Assembly: GCA_025057415.1 (NCBI GenBank)
Contig: JANWXI010000004.1
Coordinates: forward strand, 1 to 59,196
DNA: 59,196 bases
Direction of reading: 5' to 3'
Source of the DNA: Chitinophagales bacterium
Lineage (GTDB): Bacteria > Bacteroidota > Bacteroidia > Chitinophagales > LD1
The translations under genes and the position numbers were made by a program. Within the stretch, counting starts at the first letter, position 1; every line of letters begins with the position of its first letter. Under the pieces are notes generated by a model. It made no database searches. It saw only the letters and a list, made by a program, of their open reading frames with translations, and was not told the origin of the DNA. Below, piece after piece: positions 11 to 59,196 of this stretch.

Positions 11-170
11 GGTGAGGGATGCGGAGGGCGCGAGCGCAGCGAAGCGGCCACGCCCGCACCGTTGAAAAACAAACAACGCGCGGGCGCGGCGGGAGCGACA
101 GCGTACCCCGTAGCCAGCCCGACCCCGCTGCTGCGCGCAGCCCCGCGGAGCGCAGCAGCGGGGGCACCCC
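11..170 (+). repeat. Structured intergenic repeat, copy A
   Basis: This is one of eight copies of a GC-rich element. It opens with GGTGAGGGATGCG and closes with GGGGGCACCCC. Inside, CGCCCGC pairs with GCGGGCG around an A-rich loop that itself closes with GTTG/CAAC. A second hairpin pairs CCCCGCTGCTGCGC with GCGCAGCAGCGGGG. The copy lies 58 nt beyond the stop codon of the GH1 gene, with the GGGGCACCCC end facing that gene. The open frames across it (for example the 63-aa ORF at 62-253) follow from its GC richness and are not supported as genes. Confidence 0.9.
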
Positions 171-228
171 ATAATATAAAACAATTTTTAATGTATTGCC
201 CGTTTCGTTTTGTGCGTATCGTTCATTT

Positions 229-1413
229 TTACAAGCGTATCGTTTTGCCATAGGCAACCTGGCGGTAAACATCCGCGCTGGGGCGCTTGCGGCGTTCCTT
301 TGTTTCAATGTCTGTTTCGTACAGGCCGAAGCGGTACGTAGGTCCCAGGTTCCACTCAAAGTTGTCAAATGTGCTCCACCAAAAATACCCCCGTATGTCC
401 ACTCCGCTCTGCATGCACGCATGCACAATACGCAGGTACTCTTTCATGGCGCTGATGCGGAAGTTGTCATCACTTGTGCATACGCCGCTTTCGGTAATGA
501 TTATCGGCAGGCGGTATTTTTTCCAGTAGCGGTGAATGCACTCCGCCATTCCTTGCGGGTAGTATTCCCACATGTCATCGTGGGGTTTGTTCAGTTTTTT
601 GATTTTGTCGGGAGTATCAATGTACGTTATGGGATGAGGGTCGTGTGAAATTTTTGCGTAGTAACTCATTCCAAAAAAATCTAACGCTCCGGCAAATTGT
701 TGCAGGCAAAAGTCCATAAACCACCAGTCCGAAATGCGAGCCGGTAAAAGACCGGCCAGGTTCTCTGCGCTGAAGATTACAGCATTATGACTGATGCCAA
801 CCGGAATATGCGGATGTTCGTTTTTAAGCTCTGTGTAAGCCAGATGGTGGGCTTTGCCCAGGTTTCTGATAACGCGGAAAGCTCTTCGGATGCTCCTTTG
901 CTGTGGTGGAAACAACCCCGTAATCCATCCGTTGCTAGCATACACGTTTGGTTCGTTAAAAGTATTCCAGAAGCGCACGTATTTGCCAAACCGTTGCGAT
1001 ACTTTTCTGGCAAAGTCAACCCATAATGCCACGTTCTCTTCCTTCTCCCACCCGCCTTTTGCAAGAAACCAGTTTGGATTGTGAAAGTGGTGCAGCACCA
1101 GCATTATTTGTACGCCTTTTGCGCTGAGTAATTCCAAAAATCGCTCGTATTCGTTAGCTGTTTCTTCGTGTAATGGGGCAAGCGGGGCGCGTTGCAGTTT
1201 GCTCCACAGAAAACCCATGCGGTAATACGGAGCGCAGTAGGCAATTATGTCGGCATCCTCCTCGCGGTGCAACTCATGGTCGCAGGTGCGGTTAAAAATG
1301 TGCCCGTCTTTTGATGTAAAGTTTACCCACTCATGTTCAAAAGCGGTTTCAATCTGTGCTGCCGCTGTAGAAGTTCCAAACACAAAGTCGGCCGGAAAAT
1401 GAAGTTCGGTCAT
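229..1413 (-). CDS. Glycoside hydrolase family 1 (beta-glucosidase-like)
   Basis: A 394-residue GH1 retaining glycosidase, expected to cleave beta-linked glucosides or galactosides. The two catalytic glutamates are visible: the acid/base in TFNEPN (E154) and the nucleophile in ITESG (E308). The family N-terminal signature is present as FPADFVFGTSTAAAQIE, and WWSTFDNFEW near the C-terminus is the usual GH1 substrate-pocket segment. The protein is shorter than the common 440-470 residues, with compact loops. No signal peptide is seen, so it is probably cytoplasmic. It stands alone with no transporter or regulator beside it, so the substrate cannot be given. The family call is firm. Confidence 0.93.
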   Translation of the reverse strand: MTELHFPADFVFGTSTAAAQIETAFEHEWVNFTSKDGHIFNRTCDHELHREEDADIIAYCAPYYRMGFLWSKLQRAPLAPLHEETANEYERFLELLSAKGVQIMLVLHHFHNPNWFLAKGGWEKEENVALWVDFARKVSQRFGKYVRFWNTFNEPNVYASNGWITGLFPPQQRSIRRAFRVIRNLGKAHHLAYTELKNEHPHIPVGISHNAVIFSAENLAGLLPARISDWWFMDFCLQQFAGALDFFGMSYYAKISHDPHPITYIDTPDKIKKLNKPHDDMWEYYPQGMAECIHRYWKKYRLPIIITESGVCTSDDNFRISAMKEYLRIVHACMQSGVDIRGYFWWSTFDNFEWNLGPTYRFGLYETDIETKERRKRPSADVYRQVAYGKTIRL

Positions 1414-1613
1414 GTTGCCTGAGTGCTGTAAATATTGTGATTAAACACAAACGCCGTAAATAGAAAATAGAAATGACAAATCTGAAAATATAACTGCATG
1501 GTTGTGCGCATTTTTTATCTGGTAACAGTTTCTAAATAATGAAAATACGATGCCTTAACCGTATGGGTCAGCGAGTTAATTTTTTGCAATAAATTTTTGG
1601 TTTTTACTCAAAT

Positions 1614-2768
1614 ATGTACTTGTTTTACATCAGACCCACTAATACCCCTCCCGTGCGTCCAGAAGATACATGGTTGCTGTACGGATGTTATGGCTATACA
1701 GGAGAGTTGATTGCAAGGCACGCCGTAGAGTGTGGCATGCGTCCTACTTTGGCGGGGCGCGATGCAAACCGCGTGGCAAAACTTGCAGGGGAGTTAAATT
1801 TGCCCTACCTCGTTTTTCCGTTAAATGATGCCGATGCAATAGCCGAGCGCATAGCGGGTTTCAAATGTGTATTGCATTGTGCCGGCCCGTTTATTCACAC
1901 TGCACCGCCTATGCTCCGGGCTTGCCTCAAAAGCAAAGTGCACTACCTTGATATAACCGGAGAGTACCAGATATTTGAAGACGTGTTTGCGCTGGATAAA
2001 CAAGCCCGCGATGCGGGCATTATGCTCCTGCCCGGTGTGGGCTTTGATGTGGTTCCTTCAGATTGTCTGGCAGCTCACCTCAAAGATGCTCTTCCGTCAG
2101 CGCTGATGCTGGAGTTGGTAATCATGAGCTTGGGAGGTGGCATTTCGCGCGGTACAGCGCTCACCATTGTTGAAAACCTCGGCATGGGTACCGTCATCCG
2201 CCGGCGCGGTAAACTCCGCACCGTGGAGCAAGGCGAAATAACCCGTGCTATTGAATACAATAAAAAGTCCTATAATGCCGTGGCCATCACCTGGGGCGAT
2301 GTATCCACTGCCTATCGCTCCACATCCATTCCCAATATCACAGTTTACAGCGTACTGCCTCCGCGCGTCATACGCACATTAAAACTTAGCAACTTTATCA
2401 ATTTTGTCCTTCGTTCGGCATGGTTCAAAAAGCTCCTCCGCACTCGCATTACTTCGCGCCCGCCCGGCCCCGATGCCAACAAGCGCCAAAGCGCCCGCTC
2501 AGCCATTTGGGGCGAGGTATCTAACAACCTCGGCATCACCAAACAAATGCTGCTCACCCTGCCCGAAGGTTACACCCTCACTTACCTCACAGCCGTTGCC
2601 ATCGTAAACGAAGTCCTCAAAGGCAACTTCATAACCGGTGCGCAAACCCCCTCGCTGGTTTACGGCAAAGATTTCATCCTCCGCTTCAAAGGCGTACAAT
2701 TAGAAGACCTCTCACAAAACTTCCAAAAACCCCTCACAAGCGCAAAAGCTGTTTCGCGCTCTTCATAA
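1614..2768 (+). CDS. Saccharopine dehydrogenase-like NAD(P)-binding reductase
   Basis: A 384-residue protein with an N-terminal Rossmann fold (about residues 20-130). The segment LLYGCYGYTGELIA, followed by LAGRD, is typical of the saccharopine dehydrogenase NADP-binding family, which includes the trans-acting enoyl reductases and SCCPDH-like proteins. The rest matches the all-family layout, with GVGFDVVPSDCLA in the middle, a motif shared by these short-chain-like reductases. True lysine-pathway activity is unlikely without pathway neighbours; an acyl or lipid reductase is as likely. The ATG at 1614 leaves about 20 residues before the Rossmann strand. The gene is monocistronic and followed 28 nt later by repeat copy B. 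Confidence 0.8.
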   Translation: MYLFYIRPTNTPPVRPEDTWLLYGCYGYTGELIARHAVECGMRPTLAGRDANRVAKLAGELNLPYLVFPLNDADAIAERIAGFKCVLHCAGPFIHTAPPMLRACLKSKVHYLDITGEYQIFEDVFALDKQARDAGIMLLPGVGFDVVPSDCLAAHLKDALPSALMLELVIMSLGGGISRGTALTIVENLGMGTVIRRRGKLRTVEQGEITRAIEYNKKSYNAVAITWGDVSTAYRSTSIPNITVYSVLPPRVIRTLKLSNFINFVLRSAWFKKLLRTRITSRPPGPDANKRQSARSAIWGEVSNNLGITKQMLLTLPEGYTLTYLTAVAIVNEVLKGNFITGAQTPSLVYGKDFILRFKGVQLEDLSQNFQKPLTSAKAVSRSS

Positions 2769-2796
2769 ATTACATTTTTTTACAATATAGTTCTTT

Positions 2797-2960
2797 GGGG
2801 GTGCCCCCTGCTGCGTTGCGCTCGTACCTCGCGCAGGCAGCAGGGGTCGGGCTTGCTACGGGGTGCGCTGTCGCTCCCGCCGCGCCCGCACTTTGGTTGT
2901 TTTTCAACGGTGCGGGCGCGGCCGCTTCGCTGCGCTCGCGCCCTACGCATCCCTCACCCG
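2797..2960 (-). repeat. Structured intergenic repeat, copy B
   Basis: Inverted copy of the family. Read on the minus strand, the first stem is GCCGCGCCCGCA paired with TGCGGGCGCGGC, 12 perfect pairs, where copy A and copy G have other bases. It begins 28 nt after the preceding stop codon, with the GGGGTGCCCC end nearest that gene. Confidence 0.9.
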
Positions 2961-3307
2961 GCTGGCGCACCCAGGGTACACACCTGTCTTCGCATCACTT
3001 CACACGCTACACAACACATTCTTCATTTACCTGTTTGATTATCGATTTAACAATTCATCTCCACATTTACGCATCGTTCAGTACCGGTCAGGCGCAATGT
3101 GCCACCTGTCCGGTACCCTTTTGATCACATATCTACTTTATACCCATTGTAAATCATCCTCTAATCTCACCCTTATGTCACACCACTTACCACGCATCTC
3201 AGGCGGGTTAGGCGCCTAATACACACACTTCTAAAACAAATAATGAAAAGGAGTTTTTGTTTTCTGCCATTAAAAACTACTTTTGCCGTCCCAAAAAACA
3301 AAAGTGG
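2961..3307 (+). other. Leader region of the rpsL operon
   Basis: About 350 nt lie between repeat B and the rpsL start. I see no gene. The region contains the strong hairpin at 3081-3116 and a small inverted repeat, AGGCG with CGCCT, near 3204-3219. No full TTTG/TAnnTTTG promoter could be placed with confidence, so the operon promoter is probably here but is not identified. Confidence 0.5.
3081..3122 (+). terminator. Hairpin with T-tract upstream of rpsL
   Basis: GTACCGG pairs with CCGGTAC; inside it, after one T/T mismatch, CAGG pairs with CCTG. The hairpin is followed by CCTTTTG. It could be the terminator of the 1614-2768 gene, although it is 310 nt away with a repeat between, or an attenuator or protein-binding hairpin in the rpsL leader. 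The T-tract is short, so the terminator reading is tentative. Confidence 0.4.
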
Positions 3308-3709
3308 ATGCCTACTATTCAGCAATTAGTGCGTAAATCGCGCGAAATCATACGGGCAAAATCCAAGAGCCGCGCTCTGGATGCCTGCCCCCAAAAGCGG
3401 GGCGTTTGTACGCGCGTTTACACCACTACGCCCAAGAAACCCAACTCTGCATTGCGCAAAGTAGCGAAGGTGCGTTTAACCAATCAGGTGGAGGTAATCG
3501 CCTACATCCCGGGCGAGGGTCACAACTTGCAGGAACACTCCATCGTACTCATTCGCGGCGGTCGGGTAAAAGACCTCCCGGGTGTGCGTTACCACATTGT
3601 GCGTGGTTCGCTCGACACCGCCGGTGTAGAAAATCGCAAAAAAAGCCGTTCCAAGTACGGCACCAAACGCCCGAAAGCGGGTGCTGCTGCCGCTCCTTCT
3701 AAAAAATAA
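3308..3709 (+). CDS. rpsL: 30S ribosomal protein S12
   Basis: S12 forms part of the decoding centre of the small subunit. The protein starts [12 protein letters not shown], as in the family, so I place the start at the ATG at 3308; the ORF track begins earlier at a TTG and adds 17 spurious residues. The conserved loop [18 protein letters not shown] (streptomycin-site lysine) and [12 protein letters not shown], with the aspartate that is often methylthiolated, are intact. There are 133 residues, with an alanine/lysine-rich tail slightly longer than the core family. It is the first gene of the unit rpsL-rpsG-fusA-rpsJ-(small protein)-rplC. Lysine is present at the usual resistance position, so nothing suggests streptomycin resistance. 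Confidence 0.97.
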
Positions 3710-3738
3710 TCACCACGAAAAATACCACATAATCATAC

Positions 3739-4206
3739 ATGAGAAAGAAAAGAGCTCCAAAACGTTACATACAGCCCGACCCCAAATTCAATGATGTGGA
3801 CGTTGCCAAGTTCGTTAACCGCCTCATGTGGGAGGGTAAAAAGTCCGTGGCTTACAAAATATTTTACGGAGCACTCGACCTCGTACACGAGCGCACTAAA
3901 GAAGACCCCCTGGAGGTTTGGCGCAAAGCTGTGCTAAATGTATCACCCTCTGTAGAGGTTAAATCAAGGCGCATCGGTGGGGCAAACTTTCAGATACCCG
4001 TGGAGGTACGCCCTGAACGCAAGCAGGCGCTGGCCATGAAATGGCTCATTCAGTACAGCCGCGAGCGCAACGGCAAATCCATGGCCGATAAACTTGCCTC
4101 CGAAATCATTGCCGCCTCCAAAGGCGAAGGAGCTGCCTTTAAGAAAAAAGAAGACACCCACCGCATGGCCGAAGCCAACAAGGCATTCGCTCACTTTAAG
4201 TTTTAA
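3739..4206 (+). CDS. rpsG: 30S ribosomal protein S7
   Basis: A 155-residue S7, the assembly protein that nucleates the 3' major domain of 16S rRNA and contacts the E site. The N-terminus [19 protein letters not shown] and the segment [19 protein letters not shown] are family hallmarks. It follows rpsL after 29 nt and precedes fusA by 53 nt, the standard str-operon order. Length is normal for the family. Confidence 0.97.
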
Positions 4207-4259
4207 TTCTATATAAACCAATCATAAAAGAGGAACTGGTTCTATACAGTTGAACGAAA

Positions 4260-6371
4260 ATGGGAAAAGACCTCAGCTACACGAGAAACATCGGCATTGC
4301 CGCGCATATTGACGCCGGTAAAACCACCACTACCGAGCGGATACTTTACTACACCGGTGTGAACTACAAAATCGGTGAGGTGCACGATGGCGCAGCCACC
4401 ATGGACTGGATGGAGCAGGAGCAGGAGAGGGGCATCACCATTACCTCTGCCGCCACCCGATGTCAATGGACCTGGCAAGGAAAAAAGTACGATATAAATA
4501 TAATCGACACTCCCGGCCACGTGGACTTTACCGTTGAAGTAAACCGCTCTCTCCGGGTATTGGATGGTCTCGTGTTTCTCTTCTCAGCCGTTGATGGTGT
4601 AGAGCCCCAGTCCGAAACAAACTGGCGCCTGGCCGATAACTATGGTGTTCCGCGCCTGGGCTTTGTAAATAAAATGGACCGCCAGGGCGCTGACTATTTT
4701 AATGTAGTTAAGCAGGTAGAGACCATGCTCGGCTCCAATCCCCTGATAATGCAGGTTCCCATCGGTAGCGAGGATAATTTTAAGGGTGTATTTGACCTGG
4801 TAACCAACCAGGCCATCATATGGAATGAAGAAGATTTGGGCATGACCTACAGAGTAGTTGAGTGTCCTGATGATATACAGGAGGATGTAAAAAAATACCG
4901 CGAGCAGCTACTTGAAAAAGTTGCCGAGTTTGATGATAAACTGATGGAGAAATTCTTCTCAGACCCCAACTCCATCACTCCCGATGAAATTCGCTCAGCT
5001 ATTCGGCAGGCCGTAATCGCACAAAAACTCGTGCCCATGTTTTGCGGTTCATCTTTCAAAAACAAAGGTGTGCAGGCCGTGCTGGATGCCGTATGTGCCT
5101 TGCTTCCTTCCCCTCAAGACAAAAAAGAAGTAAAAGGCACCAACCCCGAAAATGGCGAAATTATTACCCGCAAACCCGATACTGACGAGCCCTTCACTGC
5201 ATTGGCATTCAAAATAGCCACCGACCCCTTTGTAGGCCGCCTGGCTTATTTCCGCGTTTACTCCGGAAGTTTAGAGGCAGGTTCTTATGTATTAAACACA
5301 CGCACAGGCAAAAAAGAGCGCATTTCGCGCCTCTTTCAAATGCATGCCAATAAGCAAAACCCCATTGAGCGCGTAGAGGCAGGTGACATAGCAGCTGCAG
5401 TAGGTTTCAAAGACATTCGCACCGGAGATACGCTTTGTGATGAAAAACACCCCATCGTGCTCGAAAGCATGAAATTCCCCGAGCCGGTTATATCACTAGC
5501 CATAGAACCCAAAGCCCAAAAGGACATGGACAAACTGGGCATGAGCTTGGCGAAACTTGCCGAAGAAGATCCTACTTTTCGCGTCAGTTTCGATGAACAA
5601 ACCGGCCAAACTATCATTTCGGGCATGGGTGAGTTGCATCTGGAAATAATCATTGACCGCCTACGCAGAGAGTTTAAGGTAGAGTGCAACCAGGGCGCTC
5701 CGCAGGTTAACTATAAAGAGCGCCTCACAACCACCATCGAGCACCGTGAACTTTATAAAAAACAAACCGGTGGTCGGGGTAAATATGCCGAAATTAAAAT
5801 TGAAATTGGCCCTGCTGACGAAGGTGTATCTGGCCTGCAGTTTATTAATGACATTTTCGGTGGAGCCATACCCAAAGAATTTATCCCTGCCGTAGAAAAG
5901 GGTTTCAGAGAAGCTATGAAAACCGGAGTGCTGGCTGGTTATGAAATGGACAATCTGAAAGTACGTCTCTTTGACGGCTCATACCACGAAGTTGACTCTG
6001 ACTCCCTCTCCTTTGAGCTTTGTGCCAAACTCGCCTTCCGTAACGCAGCTAAACTTGCCAAGCCCATTTTGTTGGAGCCAATCATGAAAGTTGAAGTAAT
6101 CACCCCCGAAGAAAATACCGGAGATGTAGTGGGTGACCTCAACCGCCGCCGCGGTATTCTTGAAGGTATGGAAGCCCGCCAAAACGCGCAAGTTATAAGA
6201 GCTAAAGTACCCCTTAGCGAAATGTTTGGCTACGTTACTCAGTTGCGTACCCTCACTTCGGGCCGCGCTACCTCCACTATGGAGTTCCACAGCTATCAGC
6301 CAGCCCCCGAAAACGTGGCATCTGTTGTAATAGCCAAAAATTCTGGTAAACTTAAACCCGTTGAAGAATAA
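4260..6371 (+). CDS. fusA: Elongation factor G
   Basis: A 703-residue EF-G, the GTPase that drives translocation of tRNA and mRNA on the ribosome. The G1 motif [15 protein letters not shown], switch [14 protein letters not shown] and NKMDRQGAD (G4) are present. Domain II, domain III ([24 protein letters not shown]), domain IV ([11 protein letters not shown]) and domain V follow in order. It lies between rpsG and rpsJ as in other str operons. The effector-loop sequence [15 protein letters not shown] is a typical bacterial EF-G I form. No irregularity seen. Confidence 0.98.
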
Positions 6372-6407
6372 TCCAAACTTTTTCAAAACCCAAATAACGT
6401 TCTTTCT

Positions 6408-6713
6408 ATGAGCCAGCGCATACGCATCAAACTGAAAAGCTACGACCACAATCTCGTGGACAAAAGCGCAGAGAAAATTGTCAAAACCGTAAAAAGCACC
6501 GGTGCTGTAGTCAGCGGGCCTGTGCCTTTGCCCACCCGTAAAAAAATTTTTACGGTCAATCGCTGCCCCCATGTGAATAACAACAGCAAGGAACAATTCC
6601 AACTCTGCACCTATAAGCGTTTACTGGATATTTATTCTTCAACTTCCAAAACCATCGATGCGTTGATGAAACTGGAATTACCCAGCGGTGTAGAGGTAGA
6701 AATTAAAGCGTAA
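6408..6713 (+). CDS. rpsJ: 30S ribosomal protein S10
   Basis: A 101-residue S10 (NusE), part of the 30S head and also a partner of NusB/NusG in antitermination. It starts [25 protein letters not shown] and contains [14 protein letters not shown], as expected. It would normally be followed directly by rplC; here a small exported protein starts 4 nt after its stop codon. Confidence 0.97.
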
Positions 6714-6717
6714 GTTT

Positions 6718-6915
6718 ATGAAGAAGATTACAACACTCCTCGCGCTTTTAGCTTTCACTTTTGCCGGTATAGCTGCTGACCAGAAATGCGGTAAATACAA
6801 CGGTCGTCAACTCTACTTAGGCGAAAAAGGCGGCTGCTACTACCGCGCTAAAGGCAAAGACGGTAAAATGGAGAAGGTTTACGTAGAACGCAACCTTTGT
6901 AAAAATTGTAAATAA
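6718..6915 (+). CDS. Small exported cysteine-containing protein between rpsJ and rplC
   Basis: A 65-residue protein starting 4 nt after rpsJ. Residues 1-20 (MKKITTLLALLAFTFAGIAA) form a signal peptide with an AxA-like cleavage site. The mature part has four cysteines and the pattern NGRQLYLGEKGGCYYRAKG...KVYVERNLC. That pattern resembles the short GPxGGxYY...KKYV repeat known from the 'PBCV-specific basic adaptor' type domain and from many small Bacteroidota exported proteins; I recall this rather than having searched it. Mature charge is strongly basic. Its position inside a ribosomal operon implies very high transcription. Function unknown. Confidence 0.75.
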   Translation: MKKITTLLALLAFTFAGIAADQKCGKYNGRQLYLGEKGGCYYRAKGKDGKMEKVYVERNLCKNCK

Positions 6916-6969
6916 CTATATTTTTTATGTACCCGCCCCCTAAGGCGGAGACCTCTAAAAACAAAAACT

Positions 6970-7584
6970 ATGAAAGGCATCATTGGTAAGAAAATCGGAA
7001 TGACCAGCATCTTCGAAAACGGCAGACATACAGCAGTGACTGTCGTAGAAGCAGGTCCCTGCGTTGTTACGCAAATCAAAACTCCCGAAAAAGACGGCTA
7101 CTATGCCACGCAGTTAGGTTTTGATGAGCGAAAAGAGAAAAACACCCCCAAGCCATTACTAGGTCATTTTAAGAAAGCCGGTACCACCCCTAAGCGTAAG
7201 TTGCACGAGTTTCGCGACTATGACTTTGGCAAGCAGGTGGGTGAGTTTGTAACTGTTGATGTATTTGCCGAGGGTGACCTGGTAAATGTAATCGGTACTT
7301 CTAAAGGCAAGGGTTTTCAGGGCGTTGTAAAACGCCATGGTTTTTCCGGTGTAGGAATGGCCACTCACGGCCAGCACGACCGTATGCGCGCTCCCGGTTC
7401 GCTTGGCGCCTCATCAGACCCCTCTCACGTTTTCAAAGGCATGCGCATGGCAGGACGCACAGGCGGGCAACGTGTTGAAATCCTCAACATCCGCGTGGCG
7501 AAAGTTCTGCCCGAAGAAAACCTCATATTGCTGGCTGGCGCTGTACCCGGCGCCAACGGTTCATACCTGATTATTGAAGGGTAG
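6970..7584 (+). CDS. rplC: 50S ribosomal protein L3
   Basis: A 204-residue L3, a primary 23S rRNA-binding assembly protein next to the peptidyl transferase centre. It starts [19 protein letters not shown] and contains [15 protein letters not shown] and [32 protein letters not shown], the family core with the glutamine that PrmB methylates. Normally rplD, rplW, rplB, rpsS and rplV follow; here a terminator and aroB follow instead. Confidence 0.97.
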
Positions 7585-7626
7585 GTTTCGGTTTATCCGG
7601 AATTCCCGATAAAGGAAAGGAGAGAG

Positions 7627-7651
7627 TCCCCGCCGCAGGCGGGGATTTTTT
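7627..7651 (+). terminator. Rho-independent terminator after rplC
   Basis: TCCCCGCC, a 3-nt loop GCA, GGCGGGGA, then TTTTTT. It lies 43 nt after the rplC stop codon and marks the end of the rpsL-to-rplC transcription unit, so the S10 cluster is interrupted here. Confidence 0.9.
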
Positions 7652-7754
7652 CATATACAGGGTTCTACTCAATAGCAGAATAATTCTCTTTATCGCTATT
7701 TCAGTAATTTTCTTTTCCCCGCCTGTTTAACCTTCATTACTACCAAAGGATATA

Positions 7755-7786: not shown

Positions 7787-7794
7787 TTGACGAC

Positions 7795-12573: not shown

Positions 12574-13045
12574 GTTTGCAGATTATTTGTGCGTTTAATC
12601 GGTATGATATGCTTAATATTTAACAATCATTGCCCATAGCCAGATTATATGAAAGAGAAATTGTATATTACGCATTTAAAGGCAACACATTCTGGCGAAA
12701 TCTATTCCTGAGGGTACAAAAGGGATTTTGTATCAGATGTATGTTCGCGGAGTTTATTTTCCTTCCTTTGAAGCAGCCGCTCAGTTACCCCGGTTAAATT
12801 TGCACTCCTGATGTATCCTGATTATCTGGAAAGAGTTTATGTGATAAGAGAGCATTGAAGTATCAGGACAGTAGTTAACGGTTAAGAGCTTATTGTGAAG
12901 TAGTCGTATCTGGGGGTTTTGTTGAATTTGTGTGATGTACCGCGAATGCGCGCCTGCGCCTGCGGCGCAGGCGCGCAGAAGAGTAGAATTGTGACAAGAG
13001 ACAGTATTGGTCAAATGACCTTACGCCCTTCTGCTCCTCTTCAAT
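12574..13045. other. Intergenic region between subtilase and repeat C
   Basis: No gene is supported in this 470-nt stretch; ORFs here have no recognisable content. The one clear structure is a perfect 14-bp GC hairpin at 12947-12977, listed separately. The subtilase promoter should lie near 12580-12640, but I could not place a consensus. Confidence 0.5.
12947..12977. repeat. Perfect 14-bp GC hairpin with 3-nt loop
   Basis: TGCGCGCCTGCGCC, loop TGC, GGCGCAGGCGCGCA. There is no T-run on either side on either strand, so it is not a standard terminator. It lies about 70 nt before repeat copy C. A similar isolated hairpin occurs at 51666-51690, before copy G. Confidence 0.8.
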
Positions 13046-13208
13046 CGGGTGAGGGATGCGTAGGGCGCGAGCGCAGCGAAGCGGCCGCGCCCGCACCATT
13101 GAAAAGACAAGCAATGCGCGGGCGCGGCGGGAGCGAAAGCGTACCCCGTAGCCAGCCCGACCCCGCTGCTGCGCGTAGCTCTGCGGAGCGCAGCAGCGGG
13201 GGCACCCC
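13046..13208 (+). repeat. Structured intergenic repeat, copy C
   Basis: Forward copy, CGGGTGAGGGATGCG to GGGGGCACCCC. The inner loop stem is ATTG/CAAT where copy A has GTTG/CAAC, a compensatory change. It lies between divergent genes, with the GGGGCACCCC end 164 nt before the carboxylase start codon. Confidence 0.9.
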
Positions 13209-13371
13209 ATCATAATAATGATTTAAATTTTTATAGTCGTTTAGTTATGTTATTTTATCGGAGTGTATTTTGCGTAAGCGATATAACCCGATTAATGGCG
13301 TACATGGAATTCTTTCGGGGTGTTTATGCGCAAGTTTCAATCCTTCTATTTTAGCGCGCAATCGTAGAACT

Positions 13372-23512: not shown

Positions 23513-23631
23513 ATCGGTAAAGTCAGCTACTAAAATGTAAAGAAACATACGCCGGCGTTTATTCTATAACGAATTGTTATGAACAACTGATGTGCAGTTG
23601 TACAAAATATTGTCACTTTTACGCGCTCAAT

Positions 23632-24153
23632 ATGCAGGCGCCCACTCACATATTGGCAGGCAGTGTCATACAGGAATTATGCAAAACCCGTCGCTTTCCC
23701 CTCCTCACTTATTTCCTCACGGCAGTTTTCGGTTTCTTCTCACACGGCTTGTTAGACAAACTCGCCATCACCACTTACCATCCGCCCCGTGCCGATTTTT
23801 CTGACGCCTTCTGGATATCATACCACGTGGGCGTGCTGCTGGCAACCATCGTTGCCGTATATGTGTATGGCGCCCGTTACGGCTGGGGCATCATATTTGC
23901 AGTTCTCCCCGATGTGGACTGGATACTCATCCACGGGCAGCGGCTAACCGGCATCTCGCTGCCATTTTACCAAACACCACATATACATAATTTTTTAAAT
24001 GCGTTTTTTGATACAGTTGCCGCGCCCTTATCTGCGCTACCCGATTACCGCCATTACCCCTGGGCAGGCATTTTTGAAATAGCGCTCATCGCCCTGTTTA
24101 TCCTGCTCCTTCACCGCCTGCAGCGCCGCAGGCGAAACATACACTTCCGGTGA
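23632..24153 (+). CDS. Polytopic membrane protein, possibly YdjM/DUF457-like
   Basis: A 173-residue protein from the ATG at 23632 (MQAPTHILAGSVIQEL); the track starts 14 codons earlier. It has about four hydrophobic segments and scattered histidines and aspartates: HILAGS, FFSHGLLDKLA, LPDVDWILIHGQ and HIHNFLNAFFD. The pattern of H, then LPDxDW, then H in membrane helices recalls the membrane-bound metal-dependent hydrolase family (YdjM, DUF457), but the match is by eye and partial. It ends with an arginine-rich tail. It is divergent from ftsK and unlinked to other genes. Confidence 0.6.
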   Translation: MQAPTHILAGSVIQELCKTRRFPLLTYFLTAVFGFFSHGLLDKLAITTYHPPRADFSDAFWISYHVGVLLATIVAVYVYGARYGWGIIFAVLPDVDWILIHGQRLTGISLPFYQTPHIHNFLNAFFDTVAAPLSALPDYRHYPWAGIFEIALIALFILLLHRLQRRRRNIHFR

Positions 24154-24262: not shown

Positions 24263-24415
24263 GGGGGTGCCCCCGCTGCCTGGCGATGCAAGGCAGCGGG
24301 GTCGGGCTTGCTACGGGGTGCGCTTCGCTCCCGCCACGCCCGTAGTATTATTGATATTTCAAAGGTACGGGCGTGGCCGCTTCGCTGCACTCGCGCCCTC
24401 CGCATCCCTCACCCG
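24263..24415 (-). repeat. Structured intergenic repeat, copy D
   Basis: Inverted copy, 109 nt after the membrane-protein stop codon, with the GGGGTGCCCC end facing it. The stem near that end is shorter than in copies A and C (CCCCGCTGCC paired with GGCAGCGGGG). The other stem is GCCACGCCCGTA paired with TACGGGCGTGGC, 12 pairs, replacing GCCGCGCCCGCA/TGCGGGCGCGGC of copy B with matched changes. Confidence 0.9.
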
Positions 24416-36072: not shown

Positions 36073-36244
36073 CGGGTGAGGGATGCGGAGGGCGCGAACC
36101 CCGCCCGCTGCAGGAGGGCGGGGTGAAGCGGCCACGCCCGTACCCTTGAATAATTAAAAACTTACGGGCGGGGCGGGAGCGAAGCGCACCCCGTAGCAAG
36201 CCCGACCCCGCTGCCTTGCAACGCTTGGCAGCGGGGGCACCCCC
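36073..36244 (+). repeat. Structured intergenic repeat, copy E (expanded first hairpin)
   Basis: Forward copy between divergent clpS and the LTD gene. Where other copies have the short segment GCGCAGC, this copy carries ACCCCGCCC...GGGCGGGGT, a 9-bp stem around a 9-nt loop. The terminal stem is CCCCGCTGCC/GGCAGCGGGG. The middle stem ends GTA/TAC where copies A and B have GCA or GC pairs. Confidence 0.9.
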
Positions 36245-49718: not shown

Positions 49719-49755
49719 GGTATGTGCGTTAGCTTATCGTTTGGTTTTACAAAAT

Positions 49756-50472: not shown

Positions 50473-50531
50473 TCAGGCGTATTTTGTGTTTTTTTAATGA
50501 AATATGTACCTATCCTCCTAAAAAAGGAGTG

Positions 50532-50722: not shown

Positions 50723-50865
50723 GGGGGGTGCCCCCCGCAGCAGCGCGCTCGTACCTCGCGCGCTGCTGCGGGGGGCGGGCGTGCTACCGGGTGCGCGTTC
50801 GCTCCCCTGCTCCACACCGTTTCGCACCGCTCCCGGTGGTCGCGCCCTCCGCATCCCTCACCCGG
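50723..50865 (-). repeat. Structured intergenic repeat, copy F
   Basis: Inverted copy. The stem at the GGGGTGCCCC end is CCCCCCGCAGCAGCGCG paired with CGCGCTGCTGCGGGGGG, a different sequence from copies A and C but fully paired. The middle part is shortened and diverged (CACACCG...CGGTGG in place of the A-rich-loop hairpin), while the far end (GCGCCCTCCGCATCCCTCACCCG) is well kept. It lies between the rpsC promoter and the 3' end of the lipoprotein gene. Confidence 0.85.
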
Positions 50866-51159: not shown

Positions 51160-51522
51160 TCACTCCTTTAATTCCCGCAGCGAAAATTTGGCCGGGCTGG
51201 CGGTGATAGATATGTTGCGGGTACTGCCGTCGCGTTGTATAAAGCTCAGGGTGGCGTTTTCATCGTCAGACCAGTTGATTTTTACAGAGTTACTGTCAAG
51301 GTGCTCGGCATACACCTGCAACCTAAACTCACCTTTGTGTTGGTTGTAAGCATCAATGCTGATGAGGGTTTCAAACGGTTCTAGTATGTTGCTGCGCTCA
51401 CCTGTCACTATGATTTTTACTGCTCCGTTGGCATGGGTAAACTTTACTTTACCCTCTTTTGAGCCGCTGCAGGCATAAAGTGAGAGGAGCGCTGTGTACA
51501 ACATCGTTTTTGTAAAGTTCAT
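51160..51522 (-). CDS. Small lipoprotein of unknown function
   Basis: A 120-residue protein from the ATG at 51522 (MNFTKTMLYTALLSLYACSGSKEG). The hydrophobic stretch ends in LYAC followed by SGSKEG, a lipobox-like site with the lipidated Cys at residue 18. The mature part has KFTHANGAVKIIVTG and ends SITASPAKFSLRELKE, beta-rich. The ORF track runs 35 codons further upstream, but the signal sequence fixes the start. No recognised domain. Confidence 0.6.
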   Translation of the reverse strand: MNFTKTMLYTALLSLYACSGSKEGKVKFTHANGAVKIIVTGERSNILEPFETLISIDAYNQHKGEFRLQVYAEHLDSNSVKINWSDDENATLSFIQRDGSTRNISITASPAKFSLRELKE

Positions 51523-51839
51523 TTTGTTGTGATTAATAAAGTAAAGGTATGAAAACACTTTTGTTGTGGTAGGGTTGCAGGAGTTTATTTTTAGTTGATG
51601 GTGTATCAGAAAAATCGGGGGGTGCATTCAGCGGCTTGTTTGTTGGAGGTTTTGTGGAGGTTTTTCCGCGCCGCGCGAAGCGCGGCGCGGGAATGTTAAG
51701 GTGAGGCGGGTGTGGTTATTTTCTGTGCGCGCCCGGTGGCATCCCCTTGTCATATTATATTTATTCTTTATACGAATCATTGCCCTGCCAACTCACCTGT
51801 GCTGCTTTGCGCAACACAAGGGCCGCCGGAGCGATTGCT
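51523..51839. other. Intergenic region with an isolated GC hairpin
   Basis: About 320 nt between the lipoprotein gene start and repeat G. It contains the perfect inverted repeat CCGCGCCGCGC, loop GAA, GCGCGGCGCGG at 51666-51690, 11 pairs, with no T-run on either side. Nothing else was recognised. Confidence 0.6.
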
Positions 51840-52002
51840 TGGGTGAGGGATGCGTAGGGCGCGAGCGCAGCGAAGCGGCCGCGCCTGTACCGTTGAAAAA
51901 CAAACAACGCACGGGCGCGGCGGGAGCGGCAGCGTACCCCGCAGCAAGCCCGACCCCGCTGCTGCGCGTAGCTACGCGAAGCGCAACAGCGGGGGCACCC
52001 CC
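51840..52002 (+). repeat. Structured intergenic repeat, copy G
   Basis: Forward copy, 115 nt downstream of the E1 stop codon (minus-strand gene) with the GGGGGCACCCC end nearest. The middle stem pairs CGCCTGT with ACGGGCG, including one T-G, where copy A has CGCCCGC/GCGGGCG. The final stem is CCGCTGCTGCGCGTAGC-type with one mismatch (GCGCAACAGCGG). Confidence 0.9.
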
Positions 52003-52117
52003 AATAATTAAAAAATAAACATATATAAAATATTGTGCATTTATTAACGCGAAACCCGCAATGCGTTTTGCGCTGCGGGGTGAGCGGGGCGCGGGTTGTT
52101 GAAAACTTTTGGGCGAT

Positions 52118-54217: not shown

Positions 54218-54299
54218 AAAACGGCTGCAGATAAATGGAGTATGGATATGTATTAAATAAAATAAATATATAAAATTCCATGCAATCCGCTCCGGCTTT

Positions 54300-54863
54300 T
54301 TAGCGGTTAAAGCGGCTCATGGCGCGCTCTATTCCTTCCAGTACAAAACTCTGGATGGCTTGCACGGCAATGTGTATTTTTTCGTCTAACTGAGCTGCTT
54401 CTTCGCTCGTCCACTTACCGAGTACGTAGTCCACCTGGCGTCCTTTCGGGTAATGGTTTCCGATGCCGAAGCGCAGGCGCGGATATTGCTGATGCCCGAG
54501 GCAGGCATCAATATCTTTTAGGCCGTTGTGCCCGCCATCGCTGCCTTTGCCCCGCAGCCGGATTACGCCAAATGGCAATGCCACATCATCCACTACCACC
54601 AGTAAATTTTCGGGCGGTAGCTGCAATTGCTGCAGCCAGTATTTTACGGCTTTGCCCGATAGGTTCATGTAGGTGGTGGGTTTAATAATGTATATTCCTT
54701 TTCCTTTTAACCGGAGCGTAGCCACCTGGGCGTAGCGGTCGCTGATAAACGGAGCAGAGGCAGTGGTTGCCAGCGCATCCGCAATGCGAAAACCAACGTT
54801 GTGGCGCGTGTGGGTGTATTCGTCACCGATGTTGCCCAATCCGGCTATGAGGTAGTGGGTCAT
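54300..54863 (-). CDS. pth: Peptidyl-tRNA hydrolase
   Basis: A 187-residue enzyme releasing peptides from dropped-off peptidyl-tRNAs. IAGLGNIGDEYTHTRHNVGF carries the catalytic His; VVVDDVALPFGVIRLRGKGSDGGHNGLKDI and LRFGIGNHYPKG follow. GNIG instead of the commoner GNPG is a local variant I have seen in Bacteroidota. Length normal. It lies 82 nt from the E1 gene, on the same strand. Confidence 0.95.
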   Translation of the reverse strand: MTHYLIAGLGNIGDEYTHTRHNVGFRIADALATTASAPFISDRYAQVATLRLKGKGIYIIKPTTYMNLSGKAVKYWLQQLQLPPENLLVVVDDVALPFGVIRLRGKGSDGGHNGLKDIDACLGHQQYPRLRFGIGNHYPKGRQVDYVLGKWTSEEAAQLDEKIHIAVQAIQSFVLEGIERAMSRFNR

Positions 54864-54943
54864 GCAGGGCGGCTAAGGTAATCCGGATTTTGAGAATGAG
54901 CGCTACGTATAGGTAAAGTTTGTTTTATTTGCCGCTCGCCATC

Positions 54944-55600
54944 ATGGAATACATTCAGTTTTTTATTGATTTGTTGACCAACACCAAAGAGGTGTTGCTC
55001 GCGCTCTTTCAGCAATACGGTACGTACATATACGCCATACTCTTCCTCATCATATTTGTGGAAACCGGCCTGGTGATTTTTCCGCTTTTGCCGGGCGACT
55101 CGCTCCTGTTTACGGCAGGTTTACTGTGTGCGCAGCCCTCGGGTTTGGATATCTGGTTCCTCATCCCCTTGCTCATTTTCGCGGCAGTGCTGGGCGATAA
55201 CGTGAATTACTTCGTGGGCAAGTATTTCAGTGAAAAGGTGTTGAGTTGGAAAATAAACGGCAAACCCCTCGTAAAACAAGAATGGTTAGACAAAACACAC
55301 GAGTTTTTTGAAAAAAACGGAACCAAAACCATCATACTGGCGCGTTTTGTACCGATTGTGCGCACCGTCACTCCGTTTGTATCGGGCATCGGCAGGATGA
55401 ACTACCGGGTGTTTTTACCTTTCGACATACTGGGCGGTGTAATTTGGGTGGGCAGTATTACTACTATCGGGTACTTTTTGGGGCAAGTTCCCTTTGTGGA
55501 GAAACATCTCGAAAAATTCATTCTCGGCATTGTACTCCTATCGGTAATGCCGATTTTTTGGCAGGCGATAAAGCAGCGTTTAAACGCAAAAAACGCTTAA
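54944..55600 (+). CDS. DedA family membrane protein
   Basis: A 218-residue membrane protein from the ATG at 54944 (MEYIQFFIDLL); the track starts 8 codons earlier. DedA signatures: VETGLVIFPLLPGDSLLFTAGLL with the re-entrant ETG...PGD loop, GDNVNYFVGKYF and ILARFVPIVRTVTPFVSGIGRMNYRVF (the FxRFxPxxRT motif). Members are believed to flip phospholipids or undecaprenyl phosphate and affect envelope homeostasis. No neighbours suggest more. Confidence 0.92.
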   Translation: MEYIQFFIDLLTNTKEVLLALFQQYGTYIYAILFLIIFVETGLVIFPLLPGDSLLFTAGLLCAQPSGLDIWFLIPLLIFAAVLGDNVNYFVGKYFSEKVLSWKINGKPLVKQEWLDKTHEFFEKNGTKTIILARFVPIVRTVTPFVSGIGRMNYRVFLPFDILGGVIWVGSITTIGYFLGQVPFVEKHLEKFILGIVLLSVMPIFWQAIKQRLNAKNA

Positions 55601-55873
55601 GCACCGTTGTAAAGAATACAAAAGAAAATTTACGGCTTCCTGAACATCTGATGTATCGTTAACTGGAGATGAGCACTCATAACTTTCAGGCGCTGTACCG
55701 ATGAAATTTTGCTGCAAGTCCTGTACATTAGTTATTTATTTCAACGCACAGAACGAAGGATAACATAACCGCAAAAATTCCATAAATCTGCATCGCATTG
55801 TATGTTGCACAATCCGAACATACTTTTACCTCTGCATAGCAACACAACCTAAAACCGCGCTAATTCTCACACC

Positions 55874-56299
55874 ATGGGCAAAAAGAAAATCATCATCATC
55901 AACGGGCCTAATCTTAATTTGTTGGGCAGGCGCGAGCCACACATTTACGGCAACATATCTTTTGATGATTTCTTTGAAGAGCTGAAGGATGTATATGCCG
56001 ATGAGGTACAGTTGAGCTACTTTCAATCAAATGTAGAAGGGGAAATCATCAACAAATTACAGGAAGTGGGTTTCAGTTTTGACGGTATATTGCTTAACGC
56101 CGGCGGTTACACACACACCTCGGTAGCCATTCGCGATGCGGTAGCAGCTATTAAAACGCCGGTGGTGGAAGTACACATAACCAACCCCTACGCCCGCGAG
56201 GAGTTTCGGCATGTGAGTTTACTGAGCGGGGTGTGCAAGGGCATAGTGGCGGGCTTCGGGCTTGAAAGTTACGTACTGGCGCTCGATAGTTTTTTGTAA
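55874..56299 (+). CDS. aroQ: Type II 3-dehydroquinate dehydratase
   Basis: A 141-residue enzyme that dehydrates 3-dehydroquinate to 3-dehydroshikimate, following AroB in the pathway. It starts MGKKKIIIINGPNLNLLGRREPHIYG, with FQSNVEGEIINKLQEVG, LNAGGYTHTSVAIRDA and EVHITNPYAREEFRHVS. All active-site positions of the type II family appear intact. It is monocistronic, convergent with rplY. Confidence 0.96.
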   Translation: MGKKKIIIINGPNLNLLGRREPHIYGNISFDDFFEELKDVYADEVQLSYFQSNVEGEIINKLQEVGFSFDGILLNAGGYTHTSVAIRDAVAAIKTPVVEVHITNPYAREEFRHVSLLSGVCKGIVAGFGLESYVLALDSFL

Positions 56300-56315
56300 G
56301 CCACCCTGAAACAGA

Positions 56316-56341
56316 AAGCCGCCTGGCAAAGCAGGCGGCTT
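56316..56341. terminator. Bidirectional-type hairpin between aroQ and rplY
   Basis: AAGCCGCCT, loop GGCAAAGC, AGGCGGCTT: nine perfect pairs between two convergent genes. There is no good T-run on either strand, so it may act in both directions weakly. Confidence 0.6.
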
Positions 56342-56363
56342 GGTAAAGTAATGTAGAGTGCGA

Positions 56364-57002
56364 TTATTTCTTTTTCTCTTCGGGTTTCGCAGCAGCAGGA
56401 GCAGGGGCGGCAGGTGCAGCGGCAGCCGGAGCAGCGGCGGCCTCTTCTTTAGCGGCGCGCGGCACACTCACCCGGGCTATCGGATTAGCGCCCGATAACA
56501 GAAAAGTGAGGTTAGGATAAAATGCCTGCAAATCGCGCACGCGGCTGATGGCGCCCAGGTCCATGCCAGATACGTCAAACTCCAGATAACTCACCAGGTC
56601 TTTGGGCAGCGCTACCACCTGCAGGCGTCTTACTACCTGCTCCAGTTTACCCCCTGCCGAGGCGCCCTTGGGGGTGCCTTTCAGGCGCAGCGGAATGCTC
56701 ACCTTTACTTTTACATCTTCGCGCAGTTCCTGAAAATCAGCATGCAGCATGGTGTCTTTCACCGGCTCAAACTGCGTTTCTTTCAAAATAGCGCGGTGTA
56801 CCTGACCATTAAGATGAATTTCCGCCACCCGCAGTTCGGGCGTGTAAATCAGTTTGCGGAATTCGTGCAGCGGAGCGTAAAAGTTGTAATTCTTATCGCC
56901 CCCGTACAAATTGCAAGGAACGTTACCTGCCTTGCGCAGGGCACGCGTAGCCTTTTTGCCTAATTCGGTTCTTGGCGTGCCGTGAAGAATGGTTGTTTCC
57001 AT
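56364..57002 (-). CDS. rplY: 50S ribosomal protein L25 (general stress protein CTC form)
   Basis: A 212-residue L25/TL5/CTC protein that binds 5S rRNA. The N-terminal L25 domain has TPRTELGKKATRALRKAGNVPCNLYGG; the C-terminal CTC beta domain follows (LRLKGTPKGASAGGKLEQVVRRLQVVALPKDLVSYLEFDVSGM). The tail is an alanine/proline stretch of about 30 residues ending KPEEKKK, low-complexity and probably flexible. It follows prs after 48 nt in the same transcript, a widespread prs-rplY-pth association; pth is not adjacent here. Confidence 0.94.
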   Translation of the reverse strand: METTILHGTPRTELGKKATRALRKAGNVPCNLYGGDKNYNFYAPLHEFRKLIYTPELRVAEIHLNGQVHRAILKETQFEPVKDTMLHADFQELREDVKVKVSIPLRLKGTPKGASAGGKLEQVVRRLQVVALPKDLVSYLEFDVSGMDLGAISRVRDLQAFYPNLTFLLSGANPIARVSVPRAAKEEAAAAPAAAAPAAPAPAAAKPEEKKK

Positions 57003-57050
57003 GATGTTGATGGGTTTTTATGAATAAAAAATTTTATATATAAAATAATT

Positions 57051-57995
57051 TTAAACCGATGGCGTAAGGAAAAGCGAGTTGATGCTTTTGTGTTCGTGCG
57101 TGTTGCGTATGGCCTGTGCAAACAGCTTGGCAACGCTAAGCACCTTAATCTTAGGCGAGTTTTTGGGCGGCAGGGTGTTGGTGACAATCAGCTCACTGAG
57201 TTGACTTTTCTCTACGTTTTCCACAGCTTTACCCGAAAGCACGGCGTGCGTACATATTGCCCGCACACTCCGGGCGCCTTTCTCCATCAGCAGGTTGGCA
57301 GCGCTGCAGAGTGTGCCGCCGGTGTCAATCATATCGTCACACAAAATTACGTTTTTGCCTTCCACGTTGCCGATAAGCGTCATTTCGGCAACTTCGTTCA
57401 CACGCTTGCGGTATTTGTCACATATTACCATGTCGGCATTAAAGTGCTGCGCATAGATGCGCGCGCGCTTCACAGAGCCCACGTCGGGCGAGGCAAAACA
57501 CAAATTGTCTAAGTTGAGTTTCTGAATGTACGGCAAGAAGATGGCAGAGCCGTTCAGGTGGTCCACCGGAATATCAAAAAAGCCCTGAATTTGCCCGGCA
57601 TGCAGGTCCATCGTCATCACGCGGTTAGCGCCCGCAGCGGTGAGCAGGTTAGCGATTAGCTTGGCTGCAATACCCACCCGGGGGCGGTCTTTGCGGTCCT
57701 GCCGGGCATACCCAAAATACGGAATAACTGCCGTAATGTAATCGGCCGATGCCCGTTTGGCTGCGTCAATCATCATGAGCAGCTCCATCAGATTATCGGT
57801 AGGAGCGGGCGTGCTTTGAATAATAAACACAAAGGCCCCGCGCACACTCTCTTTAATCTCGGGTTGAAATTCCCCATCGCTGAAACGAAGTACATCAATT
57901 TGAGCGAGCTGCTGCCCATAAATATCGGCAATGTCTTCGGCCAGGTATCGCGTCAATGTGCCTGTAAATAACTTAACATCGCTGGTGAGCAACAT
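57051..57995 (-). CDS. prs: Ribose-phosphate pyrophosphokinase
   Basis: A 314-residue PRPP synthetase. RFSDGEFQPEI, PYFGYARQDRKDRPRVGIAAKLIANLL, DLHAGQIQGFFDIPVDHL, SPDVGSVKRARIYA and the PRPP loop VILCDDMIDTGGTL are all intact. PRPP feeds purine (purC, folP-linked), pyrimidine, His and Trp synthesis. The start is ATG 57995; the track's GTG at 58016 overlaps a perfect minus-strand TATATTTG box (58016-58023), a likely -7 element, so it would lie inside the promoter. The -33 partner is not clear. Confidence 0.95.
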   Translation of the reverse strand: MLLTSDVKLFTGTLTRYLAEDIADIYGQQLAQIDVLRFSDGEFQPEIKESVRGAFVFIIQSTPAPTDNLMELLMMIDAAKRASADYITAVIPYFGYARQDRKDRPRVGIAAKLIANLLTAAGANRVMTMDLHAGQIQGFFDIPVDHLNGSAIFLPYIQKLNLDNLCFASPDVGSVKRARIYAQHFNADMVICDKYRKRVNEVAEMTLIGNVEGKNVILCDDMIDTGGTLCSAANLLMEKGARSVRAICTHAVLSGKAVENVEKSQLSELIVTNTLPPKNSPKIKVLSVAKLFAQAIRNTHEHKSINSLFLTPSV

Positions 57996-58118
57996 AGCCC
58001 GCAATTTTGGGGGCACAAATATAACCTTATTGTTGAGAACTAATACCCGATTTACAAACCTTTGTCACCTTACAACGCCCGCGATTTAATTTATTTGCCG
58101 CCTGCAACTTCACACCAC

Positions 58119-58997
58119 ATGCTATTACTGGACGGCAAAAAGCTATCCGAAGAGATAAAAGCCGAAATTAAAACTCAAGTAGAGAAACGCCTGCTTACCG
58201 GCAAAAGCGCCCCCCACCTGGCGGCTATACTGGTGGGCAACGATGGAGGCAGCTTAACTTACGTGGGGCACAAAGTAAAGGCGTGCGAGCAGGTAGGGTT
58301 TCGCTCCACATTGTTGCACTTTCAGGAAAACATCACTCAGGATGCGCTCCTGAAGGAAATTGAACGCCTCAATGCCGACAATACCGTGCACGGCTTCATC
58401 GTGCAACTCCCCCTGCCCGCTCACATCGATGCCACCCGCGTTTTGTTGCACATCCACCCTTCCAAAGATGTGGACGGTTTTCACCCCGTAAACGTGGGGC
58501 GCATCACATTGGGCATGCCCGGCTTCGTATCGGCAACTCCTCTCGGCATCACCAGGTTGCTTGAGCGCTACGCCATTCAAACCGCCGGCAAACACTGCGT
58601 CATTATCGGCCGCAGCAACATCGTAGGTCGCCCCCTAAGCATCCTGCTGAGCAGCCAGAGCGCCACCGGCAATGCCACCGTCACCCTTTGCCACTCCCGC
58701 ACCCAAAACCTCGCATCCATCACCCGCCAGGCCGACATCCTCATCGCGGCCCTCGGCAAACCCGAGTTCCTCACTGCCAACATGGTAAAAGAAGGCGCCG
58801 TAGTCATTGACGTAGGCACTACCCGCGTACCCGACCCAAGCGCCAAAACCGGCTGGCGCCTCAAAGGAGACGTAAAATTTGACGAGGTAGCCCCAAAATG
58901 CTCAGCCATCACGCCCGTTCCCGGCGGCGTAGGTCCCATGACCGTCGTATCGCTCCTGCTCAACACCCTGCAGGCAGCGCAGCAAGCCGACCCTTAA
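58119..58997 (+). CDS. folD: Bifunctional methylenetetrahydrofolate dehydrogenase/cyclohydrolase
   Basis: A 292-residue FolD, interconverting methylene-, methenyl- and 10-formyl-THF with NADP. It starts MLLLDGKKLSEEIKAEIKTQVEKRL at the ATG at 58119; the track runs from 58062. The catalytic Lys segment GSLTYVGHKVKACEQVGF, QLPLPAHID, PSKDVDGFHPVNVGR, and the Rossmann signature VIIGRSNIVGRPLSILL follow. The ending ITPVPGGVGPMTVVSLLLNTLQAA is typical. It is followed 76 nt later by repeat copy H. Confidence 0.96.
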   Translation: MLLLDGKKLSEEIKAEIKTQVEKRLLTGKSAPHLAAILVGNDGGSLTYVGHKVKACEQVGFRSTLLHFQENITQDALLKEIERLNADNTVHGFIVQLPLPAHIDATRVLLHIHPSKDVDGFHPVNVGRITLGMPGFVSATPLGITRLLERYAIQTAGKHCVIIGRSNIVGRPLSILLSSQSATGNATVTLCHSRTQNLASITRQADILIAALGKPEFLTANMVKEGAVVIDVGTTRVPDPSAKTGWRLKGDVKFDEVAPKCSAITPVPGGVGPMTVVSLLLNTLQAAQQADP

Positions 58998-59073
58998 CTC
59001 GCCACCGGTTGCGGTCGCATACCCGCGTACGAAATACATTAACAAAAAATCTTATATGTATTTTCATTTTTCA

Positions 59074-59196
59074 GGGGGTGCCCCCGGTGCGCCCCCCGCG
59101 TAACAAACCGGGCGCACAGGGGGCGGGCGGGCGAAGGGGTAACCAGTCGCTACCCCCCCCCCCCGGAGATTTTTTTTTTTATAAAAGGTACGGGCG
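59074..59196 (-). repeat. Structured intergenic repeat, copy H (partial, at window end)
   Basis: Begins GGGGGTGCCCCC, 76 nt after the folD stop codon. The next stem pairs GTGCGCCC with GGGCGCAC, again a different sequence at the same position. The copy becomes unusual toward the end, with runs of about 12 C and 12 T, and stops at AAAGGTACGGGCG, which matches copy D. It is cut by the window end. Confidence 0.8.

Follow-up and report, generated by a model that had tools for sequence, protein, structure and literature searches.

BOX, RUP and SPRITE repeats of Streptococcus pneumoniae are modular elements of about 100-200 nucleotides (nt) with conserved ends and a variable middle, and their function is debated. 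For the shorter REP palindromes, a survey lists CGTC repeats and not GTAG repeats in the Bacteroidetes (PMC3733652). Among the Rpn nucleases, RpnA is a non-specific endonuclease promoting RecA-independent recombination (PMC5350276), and rpn genes have been reported without identifiable terminal inverted repeats (PMC10327210). In the present study a family of GC-rich, structured intergenic repeats was analysed, starting from a window of 59,196 nt, which is the whole of contig JANWXI010000004.1 of a Chitinophagales bacterium. The window is one contig of a 196-contig, 3.22 Mb draft genome, and both of its ends fall at copies of the element. The stems of the element were confirmed to co-vary, and the pairing is best read as the fold of a single strand. 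The copies share one fold with compensatory changes, are preceded by a pyrimidine and followed by A-rich sequence, lie in both orientations and vary greatly in number between related species. The family is interpreted here, with a probability of about 0.5, as structure-ended, non-autonomous mobile elements in which the recognised part is a folded single strand and not a fixed sequence.

Common fold and compensatory changes

The shared frame of the element begins with helix P1 (5 bp), which joins the two ends, and continues through a single A, P2 (3 bp), a mismatch, P3 (3 bp), a GNA/GNA loop and P4 (3 bp). Beyond P4 lie a variable branched middle, the partner strands, a GA, the variable hairpin P7 and the P1 partner, and the 3' end is A-rich. 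The same frame was obtained with RNAalifold from 30 copies of Schleiferia and, separately, from the seven complete copies of the window. For the latter, 46 pairs were predicted with 90.8% of cells paired, and six pairs were changed on both sides. Covariation within the window alone is modest; the strong evidence lies outside it. P1 is GCGTG:CACGC or GGGTG:CACCC across the family, and the change from the first to the second form in the window's genome is compensatory between lineages. P2 changes from GGG:CCC to GGC:GCC in a genus designated g80. Variant cores of the same genus carry CAT:ATG, TAC:GTA or TAT:ATA in place of TGC:GCA in P3, and GCA:TGC in place of GGG:CCC in P4, the GNA/GNA loop remaining unchanged in each case.

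The pairing was evaluated over 48 distinct anchor rows. The cells paired in 97.9% of cases against 89.5% in shuffles, 50 cells were changed on both sides against 11.3 in shuffles, and 8 of the 14 pairs covaried, while structures slid along the rows paired in only 25-49%. None of 500 shuffles reached any of the five measures, a figure that is not to be read as a probability, because the rows are related to one another and the mid-anchor was placed by its similarity to four templates, of which two had been obtained by requiring complementarity in the search. The conserved helices contribute a handful of independent events, and P7 adds more within genomes. Covariation beyond the shuffled and slid controls would be expected of a structured RNA. 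The preliminary description had stated that pairing is kept while the sequence changes; this was borne out in many genomes with both controls, and the alternative stems it quoted were present in the copies.

The two strands of the element do not fold equally. Single-side departures read on the head-to-tail strand gave G.U over A.C at 20:2 in Schleiferia, 10:4 in the window's genome and 11:5 in the anchors; the bias was absent (3:5) from the window's seven copies alone. Stability was higher for the given strand in 89 of 99 cores; mean energies were -76.6 kcal/mol for this strand and -68.8 kcal/mol for the reverse complement. This asymmetry is better explained by RNA or by single-stranded DNA of one strand than by a cruciform, so that of the two forms proposed earlier, DNA cruciform or RNA, the single-stranded one is retained and the cruciform is disfavoured. 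In SKW94, a metagenome-assembled genome (MAG) of the Bacteroidia, CGTC-REP-like sequences (CGTCATTGCGAG...) are nested in the variable stems of the element (L087, L090, L159 and others).

Copies, distribution and flanks

The head CGGGTGAGGGATGCG was matched 11 times in the window with up to three mismatches (1.2 expected) and the tail GGGGGCACCCC nine times with up to one mismatch (0.9 expected), and none of 100 shuffles reached either number. Seven complete copies with both ends and one 3' remnant were located, in both orientations (Table 1). The eight copies described previously are therefore seven and a part, as copy H lacks the head. The head and tail motifs stand far above chance. Of the closing ends GGGTG/CACCC, copy A has lost the outermost pair. 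Copies F and G lie head to head, 977 nt apart, with a 155-aa open reading frame (ORF) enclosed between them. Orientation alternates from copy to copy along the whole window, and the sampled stretches of the genome, the window included, show this alternation in 13 of 16 neighbouring pairs. Contigs ending in copies carry G or C homopolymer runs there (both window ends; L012, L025, L063), which probably arose as artefacts of assembly or sequencing where hairpins are strong.

Table 1. Copies of the element and associated features in the window
Feature	Position	Strand	Remarks
Copy A	10-170	+	AGGTG start; first P1 base is A and not G, outermost pair lost; left flank cut by contig start
Copy B	2798-2960	-	Solo; similarity to other copies ends at the element ends
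Composite around copy C (approximate)	12767-13255		
Composite around copy C, left arm (approximate)	12767-13045	+	Left edge about -279; also in other copies of the genome
Copy C	13046-13208	+	Inside a longer composite repeat
Copy C, P1 5' strand GGGTG	13046-13050	+	Partner CACCC 13203-13207
Copy C, P2 GGG	13052-13054	+	Partner CCC 13156-13158
Copy C, P3 TGC	13056-13058	+	Partner GC[C]A 13151-13154, one additional base
Copy C, GNA of the symmetric GNA/GNA internal loop	13059-13061	+	Partner GTA 13148-13150
Copy C, P4 GGG	13062-13064	+	Partner CCC 13145-13147
Copy C, P7 (variable last hairpin)	13161-13201	+	
Copy D	24264-24415	-	Solo; tail about 110 nt past the stop of ORF 23590-24153
Copy E	36073-36243	+	Solo; long additional stem GAACCCCGCCC...GGGCGGGGTG
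Copy F	50725-50864	-	Solo; interior divergent
ORF between copies F and G	51160-51627	-	155 aa
Composite around copy G (approximate)	51708-52034		
Composite around copy G, left arm (approximate)	51708-51840	+	Left edge about -132
Copy G	51841-52001	+	In a composite
Copy H	59075-59196	-	P7 and 3' tail only, 5' part lost at contig end; G homopolymer inside

Copy numbers in other sequences were obtained from pattern searches, and genomic context from sampled stretches. The window's genome contains at least 200 copies (106 forward, 94 reverse), and a reversed control pattern gave none. At least 14 of its 40 best-scoring copies are no more than about 300 nt away from a contig end, so the count is probably a minimum. 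No copy was found in the 17 other species of the window's genus. A slightly different head, CGTGAGGGATGCGNAGGGC, was matched with up to one mismatch in 19 of 395 genomes of the class Bacteroidia, some of them only by chance or within genes; several single matches (L056, L060, L070, L071) lack the rest of the element and look like chance, and others are full elements. Three species of genus g80 gave head-pattern counts of 557 (G138), 122 (G172) and 10, those of g150 gave 16 and 13, and those of g89 gave 13 and 5. High-copy carriers hold 200-550 copies in some Bacteroidota genomes, with a patchy distribution among relatives. Among the matches listed in a scan of named genomes are Schleiferia thermophila DSM 21410, which is an isolate, several MAGs of the Bacteroidia, Shiella aurantiaca and Cyclobacteriaceae, and also full elements in Treponema MAGs; in the Treponema family, exact heads occur in 2 of 118 genomes and a one-mismatch head in one more. 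The copy at L163, in a Chthoniobacterales MAG, belongs to the SKW94 type and may have been mis-binned there. Plasmid records gave no match to copy C of the window, and in viral contigs a single head was matched, with the remaining parts of the element missing.

Among 142 copies with GCGTG/CACGC ends, the base preceding the head was T in 84% and C in 15%, which makes a pyrimidine at -1 in 99%. Positions +1 to +6 past the tail were 61-90% A in the same copies, with T in only 1-4% at +2 and +3. In 157 copies A was found at +3 in about 90% with either gene orientation, and the A-richness was equal for a next gene running toward or away from the element. It is therefore probably part of the element itself. 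With gene positions assigned by a simple longest-ORF rule and not by annotation, the median distance from tail to nearest gene was 52 nt where a gene 3' end faces it and 108 nt where a 5' end does, and the head is separated from the nearest gene by 277-310 nt, a distance owed in part to the conserved upstream arms of some copies. Orientation relative to the neighbouring genes was mixed (51/37/36/33).

Larger units and an Rpn-like gene

In two g80 genomes, inverted cores with their tails outward bound larger units, some of which contain a distantly Rpn-like gene, putatively for a nuclease of PD-(D/E)XK type. In G138 the cores form inverted pairs separated by about 340 nt of hairpin-rich spacer, and G172 has a canonical core paired with a variant core. 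In G138 composites such as L251 4932-5229 the spacer is a hairpin array with the motif ACAAGGTAAA/TTTACCTTGT. About half of the 58 copies examined in the window's genome lie within longer repeats that have conserved left or right arms. These composites are about 500-650 nt long and contain GC-rich hairpins. Their outer ends resemble, by eye, imperfect inverted repeats (TTGAAGTAG... / ...CTATTTCAA), and for this reason the composites may be a MITE-like family (miniature inverted-repeat transposable elements) that includes the core. The possibility that a composite is an older repeat which received an inserted core was discarded, as the arms were never seen without a core in that genome.

An ORF of 299-327 aa is enclosed by two head-inward pairs with a separation of about 1.25 kb. 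This ORF gave a sub-threshold match (1.2e-6, 28.6 bits) to NCBIfam TIGR01784, the Rpn family recombination-promoting nuclease/putative transposase. Residues D58, E76, Q78 and K79 are invariant among the Rpn-like proteins and may correspond to the PD-(D/E)XK-like catalytic pattern D...E-x-Q-K, and the C-terminus carries helical EKQRAEQ repeats in variable number. The protein is called Rpn-like and not Rpn because no Rpn-related Pfam model was among the matches up to E 1 and no significant relative was found in the Protein Data Bank (PDB). Three protein types occur in these units, with 38-48% identity to the first. Head-inward cores lay on either side of the gene at all eight Rpn-like loci of G138 and G172 for which the contig includes both flanks, and where it includes one flank, a core was present there at 11 of 12 loci. 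As a control, 151 other interior ORFs (at least 150 aa) of the sampled stretches were compared, and a single one was enclosed by cores.

The spacers of the composites align to those of the rpn units with 77-81% identity over 187-223 nt, which fits internal deletion. Mini-elements of G172 without both heads have a common junction, GCAC/GTAGC, in several places. Gene-less composites sharing unit spacers and shorter forms sharing one internal junction indicate that these were amplified as units. A disrupted Rpn-family gene with a core close to its end was found in Schleiferia. Autonomous copies were also sought in SKW94 and Schleiferia; the ORFs inside head-inward pairs there look like ordinary genes, encoding by eye fumarase-like, GAF-like and helicase-like proteins. 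At three SKW94 loci (L148, L171, L197) a palindromic element ACTCACCCCC...GGGGGTGAGT lies between two 17-nt heads GCGTGAGGGATGCGGAG. In each of the genomes G098, G292 and G107 the Rpn-like gene is matched 24-33 times; many of these matches are fragments at contig ends, and no canonical core was present at the loci inspected.

Interpretation and comparison with known systems

If the repeats are structure-ended mobile elements, a nuclease or transposase supplied in trans would recognise the fold at the element ends, as a transcript or as single-stranded DNA, and would insert copies of the unit between genes. In the long units the Rpn-like gene would act as mobiliser or travel as cargo, and it may be captured cargo. 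It is not a universal mobiliser, because several core carriers lack such a gene. The window's genome would then keep an amplified remainder of such a system; a profile search for divergent Rpn genes gave none in this genome. A wider proposal is considered doubtful, namely that the family represents a new class of mobile element, one that has at each end a conserved single-strand fold of 100-250 nt and not a terminal repeat defined by sequence, with the Rpn-like PD-(D/E)XK protein as transposase or defence cargo, and with the same ends spreading alone in many Bacteroidota and some Treponema.

Several results weigh against the mobile-element interpretation. Flank matching in 134 copies was no greater than in shuffled flanks, so that no target-site duplication was seen, and no base-exact empty site was found; empty sites in congeners could not be aligned because these are only about 75% identical. 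Two inverted ends are not a general feature, since the copies of most genomes are solo. For the Rpn-like gene, the curated cut-off of TIGR01784 (52.1 bits) was not reached and 4 of 13 relatives matched, the best at 7.9e-9, and an AlphaFold model of the protein (predicted local distance difference test, pLDDT, 83) had no significant PDB match. The Rpn-like genes of G098, G292, G107 and G040 are without canonical cores or flanking inverted repeats; G098, the third g80 species, has 33 matches to the gene and no canonical core near those inspected. The gene was not found in the window's genome or in most of the other core carriers, among them G227, G434, SKW94 and KatS3mg027.

The strand-specific fold with its GNA/GNA loop and covariation, together with tails near gene boundaries and heads far from them, would also be expected of a structured regulatory RNA of the BOX-like kind, retained in transcripts and acting on neighbouring mRNAs or as a small RNA, with mobility incidental. 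This explanation is unlikely in view of the mixed orientation to neighbouring genes and of copy numbers ranging from 0 to 557 among relatives. There is also no T-run past P7 on the element strand, and for this reason the element is not an intrinsic terminator in its own direction. A lower likelihood still is given to a SINE-like (short interspersed element) retroelement, on whose folded RNA a host reverse transcriptase would act, starting at the A-rich 3' end, and whose insertion would leave no target duplication. The polarity and strand-specific fold, the A-rich stretch directly past the 3' end irrespective of gene direction and the absence of duplications agree with it, but outside G172 few copies are tail-only (5'-truncated), those of G172 being symmetric mini-elements, and inverted two-core units with shared junctions resemble DNA units. 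Cruciforms kept for supercoiling or chromosome organisation are very improbable; the palindromic stems are strong, but folding is asymmetric between the strands with G.U over A.C, and all 17 congeners have no copy.

Movement by a RAYT (Y1 HUH) transposase, as for REP/REPIN-type repeats, is held to be just as improbable. The repeats are palindromic and interspersed, with inverted pairs in g80, and Y1 genes do occur: the window's genome has a fragment, and full genes are present in G227, G434, Schleiferia and KatS3mg027. A 60-aa Y1 transposase fragment was seen near a possible element tail remnant at L051 (G000 contig C116). Y1_Tnp is absent, however, from G138 (557 copies), G172 (122), SKW94, G292, G107 and two Treponema MAGs, no core was found near the Y1 genes checked in G227, Schleiferia, KatS3mg027 and G434, and the elements measure 88-290 nt against 20-40 nt. 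Y1 as a general mobiliser is contradicted by the Y1-free high-copy genomes and by the lack of cores near Y1 genes, and the REP-associated Y1 transposase suggested in the preliminary description does not explain the family, being missing from several carriers including the one with most copies. The same description had not recognised the family. Rfam gave no match in the window and none on the elements at 10 other loci, with only sub-threshold TD-1/TD-2 matches beside a Treponema copy. These lie at L084 1712-1899 in a Treponema MAG, about 60-100 nt from the core. The conserved strings retrieved no relevant paper in the open-access literature searched, and a description elsewhere is possible.

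If the mobile-element interpretation is correct, it adds a family of large folded repeats spread through the Bacteroidota and a testable link of such repeats to Rpn-type nucleases, whose movement between genomes is an open question (PMC10327210). Transcription and mobility can be tested in the cultured carrier Schleiferia thermophila DSM 21410. In the draft genome many contigs end at copies, so the elements probably limit the assembly of such genomes.

In comparison with known systems, the BOX, RUP and SPRITE repeats (PMC3049150) are similar in size, conserved ends and variable middle, likened by resemblance only; the present elements differ in their unrelated lineage, in the association with a nuclease-like gene and in a fold common to many Bacteroidota families. 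The REP/BIME/REPIN repeats with RAYT (PMC3733652) are likewise high-copy intergenic palindromes with covarying stems, patchy between species and found as inverted pairs in larger units. The present elements are 3-8 times longer and multi-helix, with a conserved GNA/GNA loop and a closing end helix; they have no GTAG/CGTC tag at the hairpin foot, and several high-copy genomes are without RAYT. Instead of a 20-40 nt hairpin with an invariant GTAG/CGTC foot, the GTAG-like site is a G-N-A in the internal loop with N variable, and the elements fit neither the CGTC nor the GTAG class. Internal-deletion derivatives that keep the ends and spacers of gene-bearing units are shared with MITEs and were found in genus g80 only, whereas here the end is a folded domain of more than 100 nt, solo in most genomes, and the target-site duplication of a DDE-type MITE was not observed in the 134 copies. 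The gene of G138 and G172 resembles the Rpn (YhgA-like) nucleases in the sub-threshold TIGR01784 match, in residues D58, E76, Q78 and K79 and in the EKQRAEQ repeats; unlike the rpn genes reported without terminal repeats (PMC10327210), it is flanked in these two genomes by inverted structured repeats.

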